From contig NZ_VVIP01000059.1 in NCBI RefSeq assembly GCF_009650435.1, forward strand, positions 186,001 to 250,000: a stretch of DNA of 64,000 nucleotides. Reading direction: 5' to 3'. Below the pieces are notes generated by a model, which was not told where the DNA came from, did no database searches, and was given only the letters and a program-made list of their open reading frames with translations. This DNA comes from Foetidibacter luteolus. Its GTDB lineage: Bacteria; Bacteroidota; Bacteroidia; Chitinophagales; Chitinophagaceae. The translations under genes and the position numbers were made by a program. Below are positions 13,570-23,050 of this stretch, one piece after another (position 1 is the first letter of the stretch; each line of letters begins with the position of its first letter).

Positions 13570-16500
13570 CTATTTGAAATTTCTCGCCCCGGGAAAAAGC
13601 TCTTCCTGGTACACCTGCCGTACCTGTGTGCGTTTGTTTTCTGCTTTAAAAGGAAAACCATCATTCTCATCCCTTGGGGATAAGGTGAGCACGGGAATAC
13701 TTTCTTTATTGCTGGCGGTTAAGCTCCGCAGCAGTTTAGACCAATCCTCACAATGCCTTACAATTACATGGATTACTTCTCCCTCTTTCTGCAGCTTGCC
13801 TTCTACCATCAACAATTTGGAATGAAGTATTTGTTTGCGGTAAATGTTTTCAAACAGGTTTCTGAACACTACCAGGTTGGCCGTGCCTGTTTCGTCTTCT
13901 ATAGTAATGAAACATACGCCGCCGGCAGTACCGGGCCGCTGCCTTACAAGCACAAGGCCTGCAACTCTGATAATATCGCCGTTATTACCAGCCGAAAGGT
14001 CTTTGGCCTGAACAATATGCAGCAGGTTTAGTTTTTCGCGTATAAAACTTACAGGATGGGCTTTAAGGGAAAGGGCGGTGGCGCCATAATCCTGCACCAC
14101 ATGCTCTGATAAACTCATTTGCGGCAAGTTCACACCTGTTTCGGTGTGGCTTTCTGATGGCTGCCCTGTAAACACTCCGGTGGGGTGATCGTGCAGCGCC
14201 GTTATCTCCCACAAAGCCTGCCGCCGGTCAACACCCAGCGACCTGAAGGCATCCGCATCCGCCAGTTTTTCCAGCGCGGCTATAGTAACACCGGCATCCA
14301 CCAGTTGGTTAATGCTGGTAAATTGTTCTTTGCGCCCGGTAATGAGTTTTTGCATATCATCCTGCCGTAGTCCTTTTACCTGCCTGAAGCCGAGGCGAAG
14401 GGCAAAAAGATGGGTAACTTTTTCTTCCAGTATATTATCCCATTGCGAATAATTGATGTCCACCGGCCTAACCTCTACCTGGTGCCTGCGGGCATCGCTT
14501 ACTATCTGCGCCGAGGCATAAAACCCCATGGGCTGGCTATTTAGCAGTCCGCAGGCAAATACATCCGGGTAATAGCATTTTAGCCAGGAGGAAACATACA
14601 CCAGCAATGCAAAACTGGCGGCATGGCTTTCGGGAAATCCATAGCTGCCAAAGCCTTCCAGTTGCTTGAATATTCTTTCCGCATATTGCTGCGGGTAACC
14701 TCGTTGCAGCATACCGCTGATGAGCTTATCGTGAAACTGTTTAACCATGCCTTTCAGTTTAAAGGTGGCCATGCTTCTTCTCAGTTCGTCGGCTTCTGTT
14801 GGTGTAAAGCCGGCTGCTACAATGGCTATTTGCATGGCCTGCTCCTGGAACAAGGGCACGCCCAATGTTTTTTTGAGTATTACTTCCAGCTCCGGTGAAG
14901 GATATTCTTCTTTTTCTTCACCGTTACGCCGGCGCAAATAAGGGTGTACCATATCGCCCTGTATGGGGCCGGGCCTTACAATGGCCACTTCAATTACCAG
15001 GTCGTAAAAACTTTTGGGTTTAAGCCTGGGCAGCATGGACTGCTGTGCCCGGCTTTCTATCTGGAAAACACCAATGGTATCCGCATGGCCAATCATGTCG
15101 TACACGGCAGGGTCATCCTGCGGTATATTGGCCAACGTAAAGTGCCGCCCATGGTGTTGCCTGGCTTCATCAAAACATTTGCGTATACAGGTTAACATGC
15201 CCAGTGCAAGCACATCCACTTTCATAAAGCCAAGGGCATCAATATCATCTTTATTCCATTCAATACAGGTACGGTTTTCCATACGGGCATTAAGGATAGG
15301 GCAGAGGTGGTGCAGCTTTTCCTGTGTAATAACAAAGCCGCCGGTATGCTGGCCCAACTGGCGTGGAAAGCCGATATACTGCTGTGTTAGTTCCAGCACT
15401 TTTTTAAGATGCGAATCTTTAAGGTCAATACCCTGTTCGTTCATGCGGTGCTCATCAAACCATTCATCGGTAAACTCCCACACAGATTTGGATAGCCTGT
15501 TTACCGTATCTACCGATAAGCCCATGGCCTTGCCCACATCTCTTATGGCGCCTTTCTGGTGCTGCTGTGTTACGGTGGCTATAATGGCTGCCCTGTCCCT
15601 GCCGTATTTCTGGTAGATGTACTGCATCACTTCTTCCCGGCGCTCATGTTCAAAATCCACATCAATATCCGGTGGCTCATTGCGTGCCGAAGAAATAAAA
15701 CGCTCAAACAGCAGATCGAATTTAGATGGGTTAACAGATGTAATGCCCAGGCAAAAGCATACTGTGGAGTTGGCGGCAGAACCACGGCCCTGGCAAAGAA
15801 TATCTTTGCTGCGGGCAAAACGCACAATATCATGCACCGTAAGAAAATACGAAGCATAATTCATACGCTCTATAAAGTCAAGTTCGTACTGTATGGTAGC
15901 GGCTATTTTTAGTTCAAGCCCGTCTTCAAATATTTGCTGTGCGCCCTGCCAGGTAAGCATTACCAGCTCTTGTTGCGGCGTTCTTCCCCCGGTGGTAAGT
16001 TCTTCAGGGTATTGGTACTTCAAACTGTCAAGGCTAAACTGGCAGGCTTCGGCAAAAGCAGCGGTTTGTATTATGGCATCAGGGTGCTGGCTAAACAGCC
16101 GCTGCATTTCATCCGCTTTTTTAAGGTAACGTTCTGCATTGGCATGTAATAAAAAGCCGGCATTGTAAATGGTCTTTTTTTCGCGGATGCAGGTTAGTAT
16201 ATCCTGCAGCTCCCGCCGTTGCGGGTTATGGTAATACACATCATTGGTGGCCACAACAGGTAGCTGATAATGGTTTGCCAGTTGCAGTATGCGGAAGATT
16301 TTTTTATAATCATTGCTTTCATAACAGCGGGTGGCGCCAATATACAAATCCCTTCCCAGGGCTTCATGGTATTCCTTTACTGATTGCTTAAAACCATCAT
16401 CAACATCAAAGTTTTCTGTCAGTTGCTCCGGCGCCACTGCAATAAATTTCATGCCTTTGGCATGCTCATATACATCTTTTTTATACAGCAGGCATTTGCC

Positions 16501-16803
16501 TTTTTCTGTTCTCAGGTTGCCTTTTGTTAGCAGGCTGCACAGGTTGGCGTAAGCTTCTTTATGGGTAGGGTAGGCCAGCAGGCTGGTGCCATCGGCTATG
16601 TCTAACCGGCAGCCGGTTATAATGCTGATTCCCCTTTTTTTGGCAGCGGCATGTGCCCGTACAATACCGGCAACGCTGTTCCTGTCTGTTATGGCTATTT
16701 TTTTGTAGCCCAGCAATGCGGCTTGCTCCACCAGTTCTTCAGGGTGCGAGGCGCCCCTTAAGAAGCTGAAGTTGGTGGTTACCTGTAATTCAATATAGCT
16801 CAT
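13570..16803 (-). CDS. dnaE2: error-prone DNA polymerase III alpha subunit (DnaE2/ImuC)
   Basis: At 1077 aa it is shorter than replicative DnaE and typical of DnaE2. The N-terminal PHP domain (ELQVTTNFSFLRGASHPEEL; ITDRNSVAG) is followed by the C-family polymerase core with catalytic acidic residues in PDIDVDFEHERR and VRPGPIQGDMVHPYLRRRNG. HhH and OB-fold regions (VAGLVLVRQRPGTAGGVCFI) complete it. With ImuA and ImuB it carries out mutagenic lesion bypass in DNA-damage responses. It follows imuB by 232 bp, a gap holding a family-A repeat, so read-through from the imuA promoter is plausible but not assured. Confidence 0.95.
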   Translation of the reverse strand: MSYIELQVTTNFSFLRGASHPEELVEQAALLGYKKIAITDRNSVAGIVRAHAAAKKRGISIITGCRLDIADGTSLLAYPTHKEAYANLCSLLTKGNLRTEKGKCLLYKKDVYEHAKGMKFIAVAPEQLTENFDVDDGFKQSVKEYHEALGRDLYIGATRCYESNDYKKIFRILQLANHYQLPVVATNDVYYHNPQRRELQDILTCIREKKTIYNAGFLLHANAERYLKKADEMQRLFSQHPDAIIQTAAFAEACQFSLDSLKYQYPEELTTGGRTPQQELVMLTWQGAQQIFEDGLELKIAATIQYELDFIERMNYASYFLTVHDIVRFARSKDILCQGRGSAANSTVCFCLGITSVNPSKFDLLFERFISSARNEPPDIDVDFEHERREEVMQYIYQKYGRDRAAIIATVTQQHQKGAIRDVGKAMGLSVDTVNRLSKSVWEFTDEWFDEHRMNEQGIDLKDSHLKKVLELTQQYIGFPRQLGQHTGGFVITQEKLHHLCPILNARMENRTCIEWNKDDIDALGFMKVDVLALGMLTCIRKCFDEARQHHGRHFTLANIPQDDPAVYDMIGHADTIGVFQIESRAQQSMLPRLKPKSFYDLVIEVAIVRPGPIQGDMVHPYLRRRNGEEKEEYPSPELEVILKKTLGVPLFQEQAMQIAIVAAGFTPTEADELRRSMATFKLKGMVKQFHDKLISGMLQRGYPQQYAERIFKQLEGFGSYGFPESHAASFALLVYVSSWLKCYYPDVFACGLLNSQPMGFYASAQIVSDARRHQVEVRPVDINYSQWDNILEEKVTHLFALRLGFRQVKGLRQDDMQKLITGRKEQFTSINQLVDAGVTIAALEKLADADAFRSLGVDRRQALWEITALHDHPTGVFTGQPSESHTETGVNLPQMSLSEHVVQDYGATALSLKAHPVSFIREKLNLLHIVQAKDLSAGNNGDIIRVAGLVLVRQRPGTAGGVCFITIEDETGTANLVVFRNLFENIYRKQILHSKLLMVEGKLQKEGEVIHVIVRHCEDWSKLLRSLTASNKESIPVLTLSPRDENDGFPFKAENKRTQVRQVYQEELFPGARNFK

Positions 16804-17035: not shown

Positions 17036-18538
17036 TTATTCAAAAAACCCATGGATAAACCATCCGGGCTTTACCTGCTCATCATAATGTCCCAACCGGA
17101 AAAGCCAGTACCTTTTTCCTTCCTCATCTTCCACAACATAATAATCACGGTGCAAGCCCCTTGCTATCCACCATTCGGCTTCAATGCGTTCACAGGCATC
17201 TGCTTTCTTCACTGTATGCAACTTTCCTTTATACCTGAAATTCATGGGTGGGTAATCAGGTATGGGCGCTGTTACTTCAATTTGTTGTGGCTCTCTTAGT
17301 AAATGAATGGGCCTTACTTTGCCGGAAGGCCAGGCTATGGAAGGTTGTTCATCCAGGGAACTGGCCAGTTGCAAAGACTTTTCCGGCAGGTGATGTTCCG
17401 CAGGCAGGTAACGGTTGATGGCTGCATTACCAAACCTCGCGGCAAGGTTATCCAGCAGTTCTGCCAGTTCGCGGCTTTGAAGGCTGCTGTTGAGTGTAAA
17501 AAAAGTTTCCTGTACTGGTTTTACATCTTCTGTTTTTACAGCTTCCAGCACAAACAATTCAATGCCCCATCCCGGTTTTAGCAAACTTATTTCCAGTTCA
17601 AAAAGTTTAAAAAGGTGGCTGCCGTTGAGTGATGCATGGTTGGTTTCAACAGAAACCGTTTGTATGTCATCATCTACCCGGTAGCAGTTAAGTACAGCTT
17701 TGCGGATTCCTATACCGTTCCGTTGCATGCGGCTGCATAGCTGCTGTAAAAGTTGTTCCAATGCTGCTTCAATGCCTTTTCTTGTAGTAATGGGTTCCAT
17801 GCAGGGCAACCTTTCCTGCCAGGGTTCAACAGGGCATAAAGGAGTAATGATTTCCTCTTCTAACCCCAATGCCTGGTTTAGCCTTAACAATAATTCTTTA
17901 CCAAACCTGCGGCGCAATACAGAGCGTTGCATGTTCATAAAACTACCCACCTGGTATAGGCCAAGCTTGTGTAAGCGTTCTGTAACCTCGGCAGGTAAAC
18001 GTAATGCGGCGGGTGGTAAAGGTGTTATGGACGCAGCTTGTTCTCCTGTACCAATAATGGCTTTTACCCTGCCATATCTTGATATAGCCCATGCTGTACC
18101 AATGGTATCTGCTATAGCAACCCTGGTATGGTAGCCTAATTTTTTGAACCTGTTAAGCATATCTTTCAGGTAAGTTTCTTCCCCGCCCCATAAATGGGCG
18201 CAGCCGCTAACATCCAGTATTAAGCCATCCGGAAAATCAACAGCTGCAACCGGCGTAAAACGAATGCTCCAGTGCCCCATCTTTTCCAATAACCCGGCCG
18301 ACAGATTTTCCTGGTCATCTACAATTTGAATGCCGGGCACCAACACTTTTGCATCTGCTGCCACCATACCTGCGTAAATTCCCTTTGCTTTAGCAATAGC
18401 CGATACTTCAGTAATGCGTAACCTTCCATGATCCTGCAATGCCAGTGCAAATGCTGTTTGTGCCAGTTGTGGCTGGCGTTTAATTAGCCAGTCTGTTTTT
18501 AAATGACGGAACCATATTGCGACAAATCTTTTTTGCAT
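17036..18538 (-). CDS. imuB: ImuB, inactive Y-family polymerase homologue
   Basis: This 500-aa protein begins MQKRFVAIWFRHLKTDWL. In active Y-family polymerases this strand carries the metal-binding DxDxFF-type motif; here it is WFRHL, as expected for ImuB, which acts as a beta-clamp/DnaE2 adaptor rather than a polymerase. Palm, finger and little-finger regions follow (LILDVSGCAHLWGGEE; RLHKLGLYQVGSFMNM), then the ImuB-specific C-terminal part ending with a DREYYVVEDEEGKRYW-like segment. It lies 84 bp after imuA and upstream of dnaE2. Confidence 0.93.
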   Translation of the reverse strand: MQKRFVAIWFRHLKTDWLIKRQPQLAQTAFALALQDHGRLRITEVSAIAKAKGIYAGMVAADAKVLVPGIQIVDDQENLSAGLLEKMGHWSIRFTPVAAVDFPDGLILDVSGCAHLWGGEETYLKDMLNRFKKLGYHTRVAIADTIGTAWAISRYGRVKAIIGTGEQAASITPLPPAALRLPAEVTERLHKLGLYQVGSFMNMQRSVLRRRFGKELLLRLNQALGLEEEIITPLCPVEPWQERLPCMEPITTRKGIEAALEQLLQQLCSRMQRNGIGIRKAVLNCYRVDDDIQTVSVETNHASLNGSHLFKLFELEISLLKPGWGIELFVLEAVKTEDVKPVQETFFTLNSSLQSRELAELLDNLAARFGNAAINRYLPAEHHLPEKSLQLASSLDEQPSIAWPSGKVRPIHLLREPQQIEVTAPIPDYPPMNFRYKGKLHTVKKADACERIEAEWWIARGLHRDYYVVEDEEGKRYWLFRLGHYDEQVKPGWFIHGFFE

Positions 18539-18622: not shown

Positions 18623-19357
18623 TTAGCCTACTTTCAGCAAAGGCATGCTGATAATTTTACTATCCTGTTTGGTAACATCTGCAAAACTATTACCGGCCCA
18701 TTCTATCTGCCAGTTGCCGGGAATGCCATTACGCACTTTTTGTAACGCAACATTCCACCTGGGGAAGCCTACACCCGGCATACCTGCCTGCGGCTCACTG
18801 GCAATGGAACTGATGCGCCATCTTGAAACACAGGCAATGGTATTGGCGGTACGCGGCTGGTGGCGAAGTATAAAACCGGTAACCCTGCTTTTCTCTGTTG
18901 CCAGTTGAAACCTCCTGGACATTTTAAAATCAACATCTTTTACTTCTGCTATTACGGTGGTAAGCCTGTTGCATTTTAATGCTTCTTCCATGGCAAACAG
19001 CACTTCTTTTTCTTTTTGCAGGTCTATAAAAATGATTTGATGCGGTTCCAGTCCAAATCTCTTTAACGCAGAAGGAAAGAGTGTCCTTGTGGCGCTTATC
19101 CATGCACAGGCGCCCCCAAACTGCATTAACCTGCCTGATAACGCAGCAACAAATGCATTGGTAGCCGCTGCATCTTCAATAGTTTGACTGATGAACTCAT
19201 GCATGCAGCCGGTGGGAAAAACTGCATTGGGAAAATTTGCTTCAATGGTGGGTATTCCTATGCGCACTGTATTATCAGCAGGTAATGTTTTAAAACCCTG
19301 CAGGGTTAAAATATCCTTTTTAACCCGGTTGATAATATCGAGGTTTATTGATTTCAA
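18623..19357 (-). CDS. imuA: ImuA, RecA-like mutagenesis protein
   Basis: A 244-aa RecA-fold protein of the ImuA/SulA-like group and first gene of the imuA-imuB-dnaE2 cassette. The region around FPTGCMHEFISQTIEDAAAT corresponds to the start of the RecA-like core, and LMQFGGACAWISATRTLFPSA to the following strand. The called start is TTG at 19357; the next in-frame ATG would remove ~50 residues. The TTG lies 4 bp past a -7 box, matching the apparent leaderless starts of proB and the 5.2-kb kinase. The promoter spacer holds a perfect 18-bp palindrome, implying tight repression, presumably relieved by DNA damage. Confidence 0.9.
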   Translation of the reverse strand: MKSINLDIINRVKKDILTLQGFKTLPADNTVRIGIPTIEANFPNAVFPTGCMHEFISQTIEDAAATNAFVAALSGRLMQFGGACAWISATRTLFPSALKRFGLEPHQIIFIDLQKEKEVLFAMEEALKCNRLTTVIAEVKDVDFKMSRRFQLATEKSRVTGFILRHQPRTANTIACVSRWRISSIASEPQAGMPGVGFPRWNVALQKVRNGIPGNWQIEWAGNSFADVTKQDSKIISMPLLKVG

Positions 19358-19361
19358 AATG

Positions 19362-19392
19362 CTAAATTAATTAGTAATTAATTACTAAACAA
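19362..19392 (-). promoter_or_regulatory. imuA promoter with operator palindrome in the spacer
   Basis: On the minus strand: TTG (19392-19390), 20-bp spacer, TAATTTAG (19369-19362; 7 of 8 to TAnnTTTG). The spacer contains TTAGTAATTAATTACTAA (19371-19388), a perfect 18-bp palindrome. A repressor dimer bound there would block RNA polymerase directly. The repressor is unidentified; a LexA-like or XRE/S24 protein is the natural candidate. Confidence 0.75.
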
Positions 19393-19494
19393 TTAAGCGT
19401 GTAACGTTATTTATATTGTTGGGGCAGTTTAATGTGAAACAGGAGGCGGGGCGGACACAACAATCCTCTTGCAAAGAAATAACAGGTTACTCTT

Positions 19495-19703
19495 CGGGTG
19501 AGGGATTGCAGCGGCTACTCCCGTGAGGCCCCCCTCCAACTCCCCCTAAAGGTGGAGGGCCAGCGCTGCTTTGTGCCGGAGTAAGAGCACAACCGAGTTA
19601 AAAGCAACTAAACGTTGCTTTTGACGAAAGTTGCGAACGCAGTTCTGCCCGGCCCGAGGTACGAGGGACACCCCCTGAAAAATCAGTGAGTTTTGCTATG
19701 TTT
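19495..19703 (+). repeat. long direct repeat G, copy 2 (5' flank of imu cassette)
   Basis: Same orientation as 13343-13552, differing at about a dozen positions. The inner hairpin AAAAGCAAC/GTTGCTTTT is conserved. The copies start 6.15 kb apart and enclose only the imu genes. Confidence 0.9.
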
Positions 19704-20294: not shown

Positions 20295-22799
20295 TTACTT
20301 CCTTTTTTCCGTTTGCTGCTGCATGCGCCTTACCCTGTCTTCCAGCTTTTCTGATGAAAGGTTGTAACGGCTAAGTCCATCTACAATAATGGGGAAGGAT
20401 AGCGGTGTGTACCTTTCAGGAAACGTAATAACAATGCGGCTTTGCTGTATGCGCTGCAAAGCGTTGCGCAGCCTTACTTCTTCCATCTGCTGGTCAAAAA
20501 CTTCCTGGTAAGCCTGGCGCAGCAAAATGTTTTTGGGGTCGTGTTCACTAAATACTTTAAACAACAGCGAGGCCGATGACTGCAGGTGCCTCGCTTTTTT
20601 TTGCTCACCGGGATAACCCTGGAAAATAAGGCCCCCGATAACTGCAATGTCGCGGAATTTGCGGGTGGCCATTTCAACACTGTTAACGCTGCGCTGTATA
20701 TCCGCTATCAGGTTATCGGTGGTAAACAGGTCTTGAACATTGGTATCGTCAACAGGTATGGGTTGGTCGCTCAGCAGTTCAAAGCCATAATCGTTCATGG
20801 CTATGGAAAAAGTAATGGGCGTAATGTTGCTGATGCGGTGCCCCATTAACGAACCCATGGCTTCATGCACCTGCCGCCCTTCAAAGGGGTACACCATCAG
20901 GTGATAGCCGTCTTTGTCTTCAATATGTTCAATCAGCAATTCGTCTGCCTGGGGAATATGCGATAGCTGTTGCTGTAGCTGAAACAACGGTAACAGGCTT
21001 TCCATTTCCCGCTCCACTTTAGCGCCCGGCGGCAGTTTGTCGCCGGTAATCAGCGCAGCCTCGCTGAATGTTTCCCGCAGTACCCTGCCCAGGTTAGCGG
21101 TAAGGCTCATACGGCCGCCCATCCAGCTTGGTATAACCGCTTTTTTGGCGTTAGATTTACGCACCAGCGCCGTCATGTCTTTTATGGAAACCAGTTCCAG
21201 CTTTTTGCCGCCAAAAGTAAAGGCATCGCCAGGCTCCAGGCGGCTGATGAACCATTCTTCAATAACGCCTATATAACCGCCGGTAATAAACTTAACCTTC
21301 ATCATCGCGTCGCTTACAATGGTACCAATGTGCAGCCTGTGGCGCATGGCTATGCGCCGGTTTTTAATGCGGTAAATACCATCTTCGCCCACTTCCACCT
21401 TTTTGTATTCATCATAATACTGCAGGGCGTTGCCGCCGTTGGTAATATGTTGCAGCACTTCCTGCCATTCCGCGTCATTCATGTCGGCAAAACAATGGGT
21501 GCGTTTAACCTCCTCAAAAATTGTGGCAGGTGTAAAGCCTTCTCCAATGGCCAGCGTGCACAGGTATTGCGTAAGTACATCAAAGCAAAGCAGCATTGGT
21601 TCGCGGCCTTCAATAAGCCCCTCTTTGCTGGCCCGTTTAAGGGCCGCGGCTTCCACCAGTTCAAGGGAATGAGTGGGCAGAAAAAAAATCTTGCTGATAT
21701 CGCCGGGCCGGTGGCCGCTGCGGCCGGCCCTTTGTAAAAAACGCGACACACCTTTGGGCGAGCCCACCTGTATCACGGTATCCACCGGGCGAAAATCAAC
21801 GCCCAGGTCAAGACTGGCCGTGCATACCACCGCTTTCAATTTTTGGGTATGCAGCGCTTCTTCTACCCAAATGCGCAGTTCCTGTTCTATGCTGCCATGG
21901 TGCAGGGCGATGGCGCCTGCCAGTTGCGGCGCAACCGTCAGCAATGTCTGGTACCACATTTCGCTCATGCCCCTGGTATTAATGAAAATAAGGGTGGTAT
22001 TGCTCTGCTCAATAATAGGCACTACTTCATTCGCCAGCTTAATGCCCAGGTGGCCGGCCCAGGGAAATTTCTCAATTTCCTCCGGTATAATAGAAAATAT
22101 GGACGTTTGCTTGTGTATGTTGGCACGTATGATTTTAATATGCTTTGCGGCTTCCTTGGGTAAAGGCGCCAGTAAAACCTCCGCAGCCTGCTGCAGGTTG
22201 CCGATGGTAGCGCTGATGCCCCACAGAGAAAGCCGCGGATTTATACCGGTAATACGGCTAAGCGCCAGCTCAACCTGCACACCGCGTTTGCTGCCCAGCA
22301 GTTCGTGCCATTCATCAACAGCCACAACGGCAAGTGTTGTAAACACATCGTGGTAGCCCTTCTGGCCAATCAGCAGGTGCAGGCTTTCGGGGGTAATAAT
22401 CAGCGCTTCGGGCATATTGCGCTTTTGTTTTTGCCTTTCAGCGGTGTCTGTATCGCCGTTGCGAATGCCCACTTTCCATTGCATGCCCAGGTCGTTAATC
22501 ACTTCTTCCATAGCACGGCCAATGTCTTTTGCCAGTGCCCGCAGGGGCGTAACCCACAATAGCTGCAGGCCATTCTTAGCTCTTGCTTTATAGTCTTTGG
22601 GATGGTGATTGATGAATTGGAGAATACTGCCGAGAAAAACGGAAAATGTTTTACCGCAACCGGTAGGCGCATTCACCAGGCCGCTGCCGCCGTTGATGAT
22701 TTGCTGCCAGGCCTGCCGCTGAAAATCGAAAGGCTCAAACCCTTTACGCTCAAGCCATGCCGCCACAATTTTGTACCCTTCTGTTTGTGTAAGTTCCAT
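20295..22799 (-). CDS. ligase-associated DNA damage response DEXH-box helicase (Lhr-like)
   Basis: The protein is 834 aa from ATG 22799 (MELTQTEGYKIVAAWL). The frame opens to 22973, but the extra N-terminus is translated family-B repeat and is rejected. Superfamily 2 motifs are Q-like FDFQRQAW, Walker A APTGCGKT (~residue 40), motif II VDEWHELLG, motif III SATIGNL and motif VI QRAGRSGHRPGD, followed by an Lhr-type winged-helix/C-terminal region. This is the helicase that usually sits with an ATP-dependent DNA ligase, an MBL-fold exonuclease and PdeM; none of these is in the window. It converges head to tail with the membrane-protein gene and neighbours the imu cassette. Confidence 0.9.
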   Translation of the reverse strand: MELTQTEGYKIVAAWLERKGFEPFDFQRQAWQQIINGGSGLVNAPTGCGKTFSVFLGSILQFINHHPKDYKARAKNGLQLLWVTPLRALAKDIGRAMEEVINDLGMQWKVGIRNGDTDTAERQKQKRNMPEALIITPESLHLLIGQKGYHDVFTTLAVVAVDEWHELLGSKRGVQVELALSRITGINPRLSLWGISATIGNLQQAAEVLLAPLPKEAAKHIKIIRANIHKQTSIFSIIPEEIEKFPWAGHLGIKLANEVVPIIEQSNTTLIFINTRGMSEMWYQTLLTVAPQLAGAIALHHGSIEQELRIWVEEALHTQKLKAVVCTASLDLGVDFRPVDTVIQVGSPKGVSRFLQRAGRSGHRPGDISKIFFLPTHSLELVEAAALKRASKEGLIEGREPMLLCFDVLTQYLCTLAIGEGFTPATIFEEVKRTHCFADMNDAEWQEVLQHITNGGNALQYYDEYKKVEVGEDGIYRIKNRRIAMRHRLHIGTIVSDAMMKVKFITGGYIGVIEEWFISRLEPGDAFTFGGKKLELVSIKDMTALVRKSNAKKAVIPSWMGGRMSLTANLGRVLRETFSEAALITGDKLPPGAKVEREMESLLPLFQLQQQLSHIPQADELLIEHIEDKDGYHLMVYPFEGRQVHEAMGSLMGHRISNITPITFSIAMNDYGFELLSDQPIPVDDTNVQDLFTTDNLIADIQRSVNSVEMATRKFRDIAVIGGLIFQGYPGEQKKARHLQSSASLLFKVFSEHDPKNILLRQAYQEVFDQQMEEVRLRNALQRIQQSRIVITFPERYTPLSFPIIVDGLSRYNLSSEKLEDRVRRMQQQTEKRK

Positions 22800-22874
22800 C
22801 GCTGTAAACGATGAATGTAAACAATTTTTAAAAAGCAGCCTGCTGTTTTTGGTGATAGCAGGGGGGCAAAGTAC

Positions 22875-23050
22875 TGCCACGGAAACATGGAGTAATAATT
22901 GCTGCGCAATTATTTGAATAAGTATTATGGGCCCGGCATGGGGAATAAGAATGAGGCTTTGGTTGCGTCGCACTCTTGTGCGGTTAGGTTCGCTATGCAG
23001 CTTTTCCCACAGTACAGCCTATGCTTCTGCCGCCTTTGGCGCCAGAAGCT
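22875..23050 (+). repeat. dispersed intergenic repeat, family B (copy 3, long form)
   Basis: Plus orientation: TGCCACGGAAAC, stem AATAATTGC-TGC-GCAATTATT, TATGGGCCCGGCATG, ATGAGGCTTTG, TTGCGTCGCA (22963-22972), CTCTTGTGCGG, TATGCAGCTTTT and CCGCCTTTGGCGCC. It lies immediately upstream of the helicase gene. Confidence 0.85.

Follow-up and report, generated by a model that had tools for sequence, protein, structure and literature searches.

The DNA analyzed here is a 64,000-nucleotide stretch (the window) of a 7.28-Mb Chitinophagaceae genome. Its minus strand carries a mutagenesis cassette which consists of imuA, imuB, and dnaE2, and the sequence upstream of imuA contains a palindrome and two predicted LexA boxes (Table 1). 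The imuA start was taken as the TTG at 19357, 4 nt after the promoter-proximal box. A relative (L164) has the same 4-nt gap between box and start codon, with an ATG start, which supports the imuA start, and in a second relative (L163) imuA apparently starts with TTG as well. A large open reading frame at 20295-22973, named as a DEXH-type helicase from motifs by eye, adjoins the cassette. The intergenic DNA at 19500-19570, between the imuA operator and the next gene, is GC-rich and contains a CCCTCCAACTCCCCCTAAAGGTGGAGGG-like inverted sequence.

Table 1 Features of the imuA locus, the lexA gene, and the double boxes of the genome. Positions are those of the window unless a contig is named.
Feature	Position	Strand	Basis or composition
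dnaE2/imuC, DNA polymerase III alpha-type	13570..16803	-	Pfam DNA_pol3_alpha, DNA_pol3_finger, PHP, HHH_6
imuB, Y-family-like protein, IMS domain	17036..18538	-	Pfam PF00817, E 1.7e-9
imuA	18623..19357	-	NCBIfam ImuA, E 5.7e-16 (below curated cut-off), with homologues and start context
Candidate promoter span proposed in the first-pass annotation	19362..19392	-	TTG, 20 bp, TAATTTAG; sequence match only
Promoter-proximal predicted LexA box CTAAATTAATTAG	19362..19374	.	8/8 versus CTAA-N5-TTAG
18-bp palindrome	19371..19388	.	TTAG inner half-site, 10-bp spacer, CTAA inner half-site of the other box
Distal predicted LexA box CTAAACAATTAAG	19385..19397	.	7/8 versus CTAA-N5-TTAG; one mismatch
lexA	C21:134839-135591 (= L015:745-1497)		HTH_3 and Peptidase_S24
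Double box, lexA			0 mismatches
Double box, rSAM-UDG			1 mismatch
Double box, recA			1 mismatch
Double box, imuA			1 mismatch
Double box, dnaE-like gene			1 mismatch
Double box, umuD, with a splB-like gene behind			2 mismatches

The first-pass annotation had described a perfect 18-bp operator palindrome upstream of imuA, and the symmetry of this sequence, TTAGTAATTAATTACTAA, was confirmed. Locally, the palindrome exceeds chance: when the 80 bp preceding imuA were shuffled by mononucleotide, 0.135% of the shuffles contained a perfect palindrome of this length. The inverted repeat returned by a repeat tool is wider (19361-19398, 84% complementary), since it spans two complete CTAA-N5-TTAG boxes and the palindrome forms only their inner part. 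The sequence runs G-CTAAATTAATTAG-TAATTAATTA-CTAAACAATTAAG-C, where TAATTAATTA is a 10-bp spacer, and the centers of the proximal and distal boxes are 23 bp apart. The palindrome is the seam between these two neighboring boxes, and the proximal box is the only exact CTAA-N5-TTAG match in the window.

A second exact copy of the 18-mer was not found in the 7.28-Mb genome, and the single one-mismatch copy lies upstream of a dnaE-like gene. This copy, together with the rarity of perfect symmetry upon shuffling, could be taken to mean that the palindrome serves a different, dedicated regulator as its operator. We regard this as very improbable, since the exact 18-mer is absent from the box pairs of all other imuA promoters examined, the palindromic symmetry of the inner 10 bp is not kept in relatives, and recA, lexA, and other genes have the flanking boxes in common rather than the palindrome. 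Because the inner 10 bp show no palindromic conservation in relatives, the perfect symmetry is largely incidental. The 18-mer, which is not conserved as such and occurs exactly only once in the genome, was rejected as the recognized unit. What stands of the annotated operator is its very probable role as a repressor-binding site for imuA-imuB-dnaE2 within the SOS network; the unit, however, is two CTAA-N5-TTAG boxes. The dnaE-like gene (L347:2984-4927, G000:C82) is a second gene of this kind, with both a double LexA box and the near-copy of the palindrome. It stops after 647 codons and is followed by unrelated sequence, as in a truncated gene, a rearrangement, or an assembly join.

The first-pass annotation had also noted that the site is unlike the classical LexA boxes CTGT-N8-ACAG and GAAC-N4-GTTC, which is borne out by the CTAA-N5-TTAG motif. 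This is the published motif of a non-canonical, CI-like LexA group of Bacteroidetes, whose members combine a CI-like DNA-binding domain with an S24 peptidase domain (Sanchez-Osuna et al. NAR 2021, PMC8565304). In the same study, EMSA with half-site mutants established LexA binding to CTAA-N5-TTAG in relatives, mitomycin C induces SOS genes of the regulon in relatives, and imuA-imuB-dnaE2 is a predicted member of the regulon (PMC8565304). LexA control of imuA is already known as a class. The genome encodes a LexA with a CI-type HTH and an S24 domain, and the suggested LexA/S24 protein of the strain is the likely ligand. Alignment of relatives indicates that the Ala-Gly cleavage site, the Ser of GDSM, and the Lys positions are conserved in LexA, and the lexA gene is directly preceded by two 8/8 boxes, 23 bp apart. 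The canonical LexA DNA-binding domain (PF01726, LexA_DNA_bind wHTH) was not found in the genome, while control genomes matched. The imuA upstream site is thus predicted, with near certainty, to be a LexA operator, and we infer that in all likelihood both of its boxes are used.

To delimit the regulon, single boxes are too short. Exact CTAA-N5-TTAG boxes number 55 in the genome as compared to 62 for a reversed-pattern control, which is background frequency. The exact boxes in intergenic DNA include those of lexA, recA, ruvB, xseA, a radical-SAM protein linked to UDG, and two umuD genes, one of which is followed by umuC-like and SRAP-like genes (both named by inspection). The box between xseA, which encodes the exonuclease VII large subunit, and a divergent SocA/Panacea-domain gene (L045:1501-1513) could control both. 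At L022:1501-1875, about 2 kb behind the umuC-like gene, the gene of a 106-aa protein with no Pfam match is preceded by an 8/8 box, which itself has an additional TTAG half-site 10 bp in front.

The genome was also searched for two CTAA-N5-TTAG boxes at exactly 23 bp, with a spacing of 28 bp as the control. Six double boxes with two or fewer mismatches were found, all upstream of SOS-type genes (Table 1), and all remaining 23-bp matches have at least three mismatches. At the control spacing, no double box with fewer than three mismatches was found in the genome. Since single boxes occur at background and the 23-bp pairs all mark SOS-type genes, the specificity of the regulon is carried by the pair, and the pair rule predicts damage-inducible genes more sharply. 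The expectation that the annotated motif recurs at repair genes holds in part: related boxes precede recA, lexA, and other repair genes, but the palindrome itself is not common to them.

Pairing is also found across the family. Exact box pairs with a gap of 0-30 bp are present in 168 of 296 family genomes, versus 34 (counted by eye) for the reversed control, and among the 71 exact pairs listed, 60 are at 20-24 bp and 29 at exactly 23 bp. Distinct promoters with an 8/8 box were then counted as paired when a partner of at least 7/8 lay at 20-24 bp, and the recA set was limited to one genome per genus of Chitinophagaceae. By this definition, 87 of 100 box-bearing lexA promoters, 19 of 26 recA promoters, and 29 of 66 imuA promoters are paired, each class with a mode of 23 bp; it should be noted that the genomes are related and these counts are not independent events. 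In the first promoter set, 50 of 65 promoters were paired, whereas none of 200 shuffles with one box retained gave more than 4. In a few lexA promoters there is a third site at around 42-46 bp. In recA, one weak CCAAAAAAATTAG-like 7/8 site recurs as the distal box from genus to genus (L137-L157), as though its weakness were being retained. Beyond the family, the exact CTAA pair had no clear excess over the reversed control, and its generalization to the whole class was rejected on that ground. A functionless chance symmetry in AT-rich intergenic DNA would fit the composition of the 80 bp upstream of imuA (75% A+T) and the genome-wide background of single boxes, yet the pairing, the gene context, and the conservation across genera make it extremely improbable.

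An 8/8 CTAA box is missing from 35 of 101 imuA promoters. Two GTTAC-N5-GTAAC-like dyads exactly 23 bp apart are present in 11 of these 35, versus 0.02 expected from shuffles, and in none of the 66 promoters with a CTAA box. Inspection of the diverged lexA promoters of G001, G011, G026, G031, and G064 revealed the same kind of pair. The imuA pairs were detected with the GTTAC-type consensus, a general scan for 5-N5-5 dyad pairs being too noisy. The half-site sequence has changed while the 5-bp gap and the 23-bp distance have stayed. A reading of the CTAA-less promoters as unregulated was partly rejected, since many bear GTTAC-type pairs. The recA promoters in genomes with diverged LexA have neither motif in paired form, which agrees with the contraction of the regulon reported in PMC8565304. 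A lexA paralogue divergent to imuA (L359, G018:C1:1700145-1700605) lacks a CTAA box and has GGTAT-N5-ATACC-type dyads at a distance of 23 bp.

For the imuA promoter, the layout proposed in the first-pass annotation, TTG (19392-19390), a 20-bp gap, and TAATTTAG (19369-19362) on the minus strand, is present as described, and the proposed -7 element falls inside the promoter-proximal box. The reading of TTG and TAATTTAG as -33 and -7 is a tentative one, under which the mRNA would be leaderless and begin at the TTG start. In Flavobacterium psychrophilum, leaderless mRNAs are uncommon (5.5% of mapped mRNAs, PMC9723704). The published -7 consensus is TAnnTTTG, and TAnnTTGY is a one-base-shorter variant in Flavobacterium (PMC9723704). 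The candidates considered for imuA were TAATTTAG, the CATTTTG that immediately follows the proximal box, and, by analogy with lexA, a -7 within the spacer; none of them was decisive. A sigma-70-type consensus scan at imuA gave no match, which is expected because the phylum uses other promoter elements.

In the lexA promoters, where as in imuA the -7-like assignments are by consensus, the two boxes flank a TATTTTGC-like element, and the start codon mostly follows 1-7 nt after the end of the proximal box. This element (L188-L267, L103-L132) fits TAnnTTGY (SM5, Flavobacterium psychrophilum) and not TAnnTTTG. In the imuA promoters, a TAnnTTTG-like element follows both boxes. In recA, the start codon is 37-111 nt downstream of the box pair. 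Because boxes abut -7-like elements in many promoters, the spacing could be set by the promoter, with each box covering a different element and the pair mirroring the -33/-7 distance. This is improbable, as promoter geometry does not explain a single 23-bp spacing shared by two -7 registers: in lexA the boxes enclose the element and the proximal one abuts the start codon, whereas in imuA the element comes after both. Provided that the consensus-based registers are correct, a spacing common to both indicates the repressor as its cause.

Taken together, the best explanation, to which we assign a probability of roughly three in four, is that the site is a cooperative LexA double operator that would repress imuA-imuB-dnaE2 until DNA damage, with binding, cooperativity, and induction all predicted. 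One LexA dimer would occupy each CTAA-N5-TTAG box, and two dimers 23 bp apart would touch and bind cooperatively, as lambda CI does on OR1-OR2. The bound pair would block transcription of the cassette, and upon DNA damage, RecA-stimulated self-cleavage of LexA at the Ala-Gly bond would free the promoter. The recurrence of the 23-bp distance at repair genes and across the family suggests that repressors bound as neighbors on the DNA support one another, and a cooperative contact between the dimers at the imuA pair is rather likely. Alternatively, both boxes may be used independently, with 23 bp merely fitting two dimers or adding redundancy. It is consistent with this alternative that regulation does not require pairing, 37 of the 66 box-bearing imuA promoters having one box only, and that the 933W repressor reportedly binds adjacent operators without cooperativity (PMC3317979). 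A mere fit, however, would allow any larger spacing, and the pairs are concentrated at 20-24 bp, peaking sharply at 23, in three promoter classes and for two half-site types; independent use is therefore a possibility that we consider unlikely.

Returning to the cooperative double operator, we favor, with some reserve, a broader proposal in which the SOS network of the family follows the operator grammar of lambdoid phages. A CI-like LexA would bind cooperatively to dyad pairs at a fixed 23 bp, often a strong and a weak one, for switch-like control of mutagenesis, and the spacing, which outlives half-site change, would reflect a conserved dimer-dimer contact. The paired operator predicts cooperative, threshold-like control of error-prone polymerases, and the paired spacing provides a testable model for the takeover of the SOS response by a phage-type repressor.

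In comparison with known systems, the closest is the CTAA-N5-TTAG LexA regulon of Bacteroidetes, which is alike in half-sites, 5-bp spacer, and repressor type and overlaps in recA, umuDC, splB, ruvB, imuA-imuB-dnaE2, and rSAM-UDG (PMC8565304). The motif and its repressor were published there in 2021. The main text of that paper presents a single 13-bp box and nowhere mentions cooperativity or paired sites, whereas the box described here is paired at a conserved 23 bp. No earlier account of the fixed paired spacing was found, and titles and abstracts revealed no later literature on it.

The operators of phage lambda are annotated with center-to-center distances of 23 bp (OR3-OR2), 24 bp (OR2-OR1), 24 bp (OL1-OL2), and 20 bp (OL2-OL3). 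Neighboring lambda operators are occupied cooperatively by CI dimers that touch one another. OR1-OR3 and OL1-OL3 resemble the present system in their CI-type HTH repressor with a self-cleaving C-terminal domain and in tandem dyads 20-24 bp apart. They differ in dyad sequence and length; in addition, the genes here are chromosomal SOS genes, and the cooperativity established for CI is predicted here. The E. coli lexA promoter is similarly that of an autoregulated SOS repressor gene with two boxes, for which moderate cooperativity was reported, but it relies on a canonical LexA wHTH, an unrelated DNA-binding domain, and on CTGT-N8-ACAG boxes (PMC5152588). Lastly, the diverged LexA motif of E. 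anophelis, TTAC-N5-GTAA (published site TTAC-AAATT-GTAA; PMC8565304), resembles the GTTAC-N5-GTAAC-type dyads of the CTAA-less imuA and diverged lexA promoters of Chitinophagaceae. In the Chitinophagaceae genomes, these dyads come as pairs 23 bp apart.
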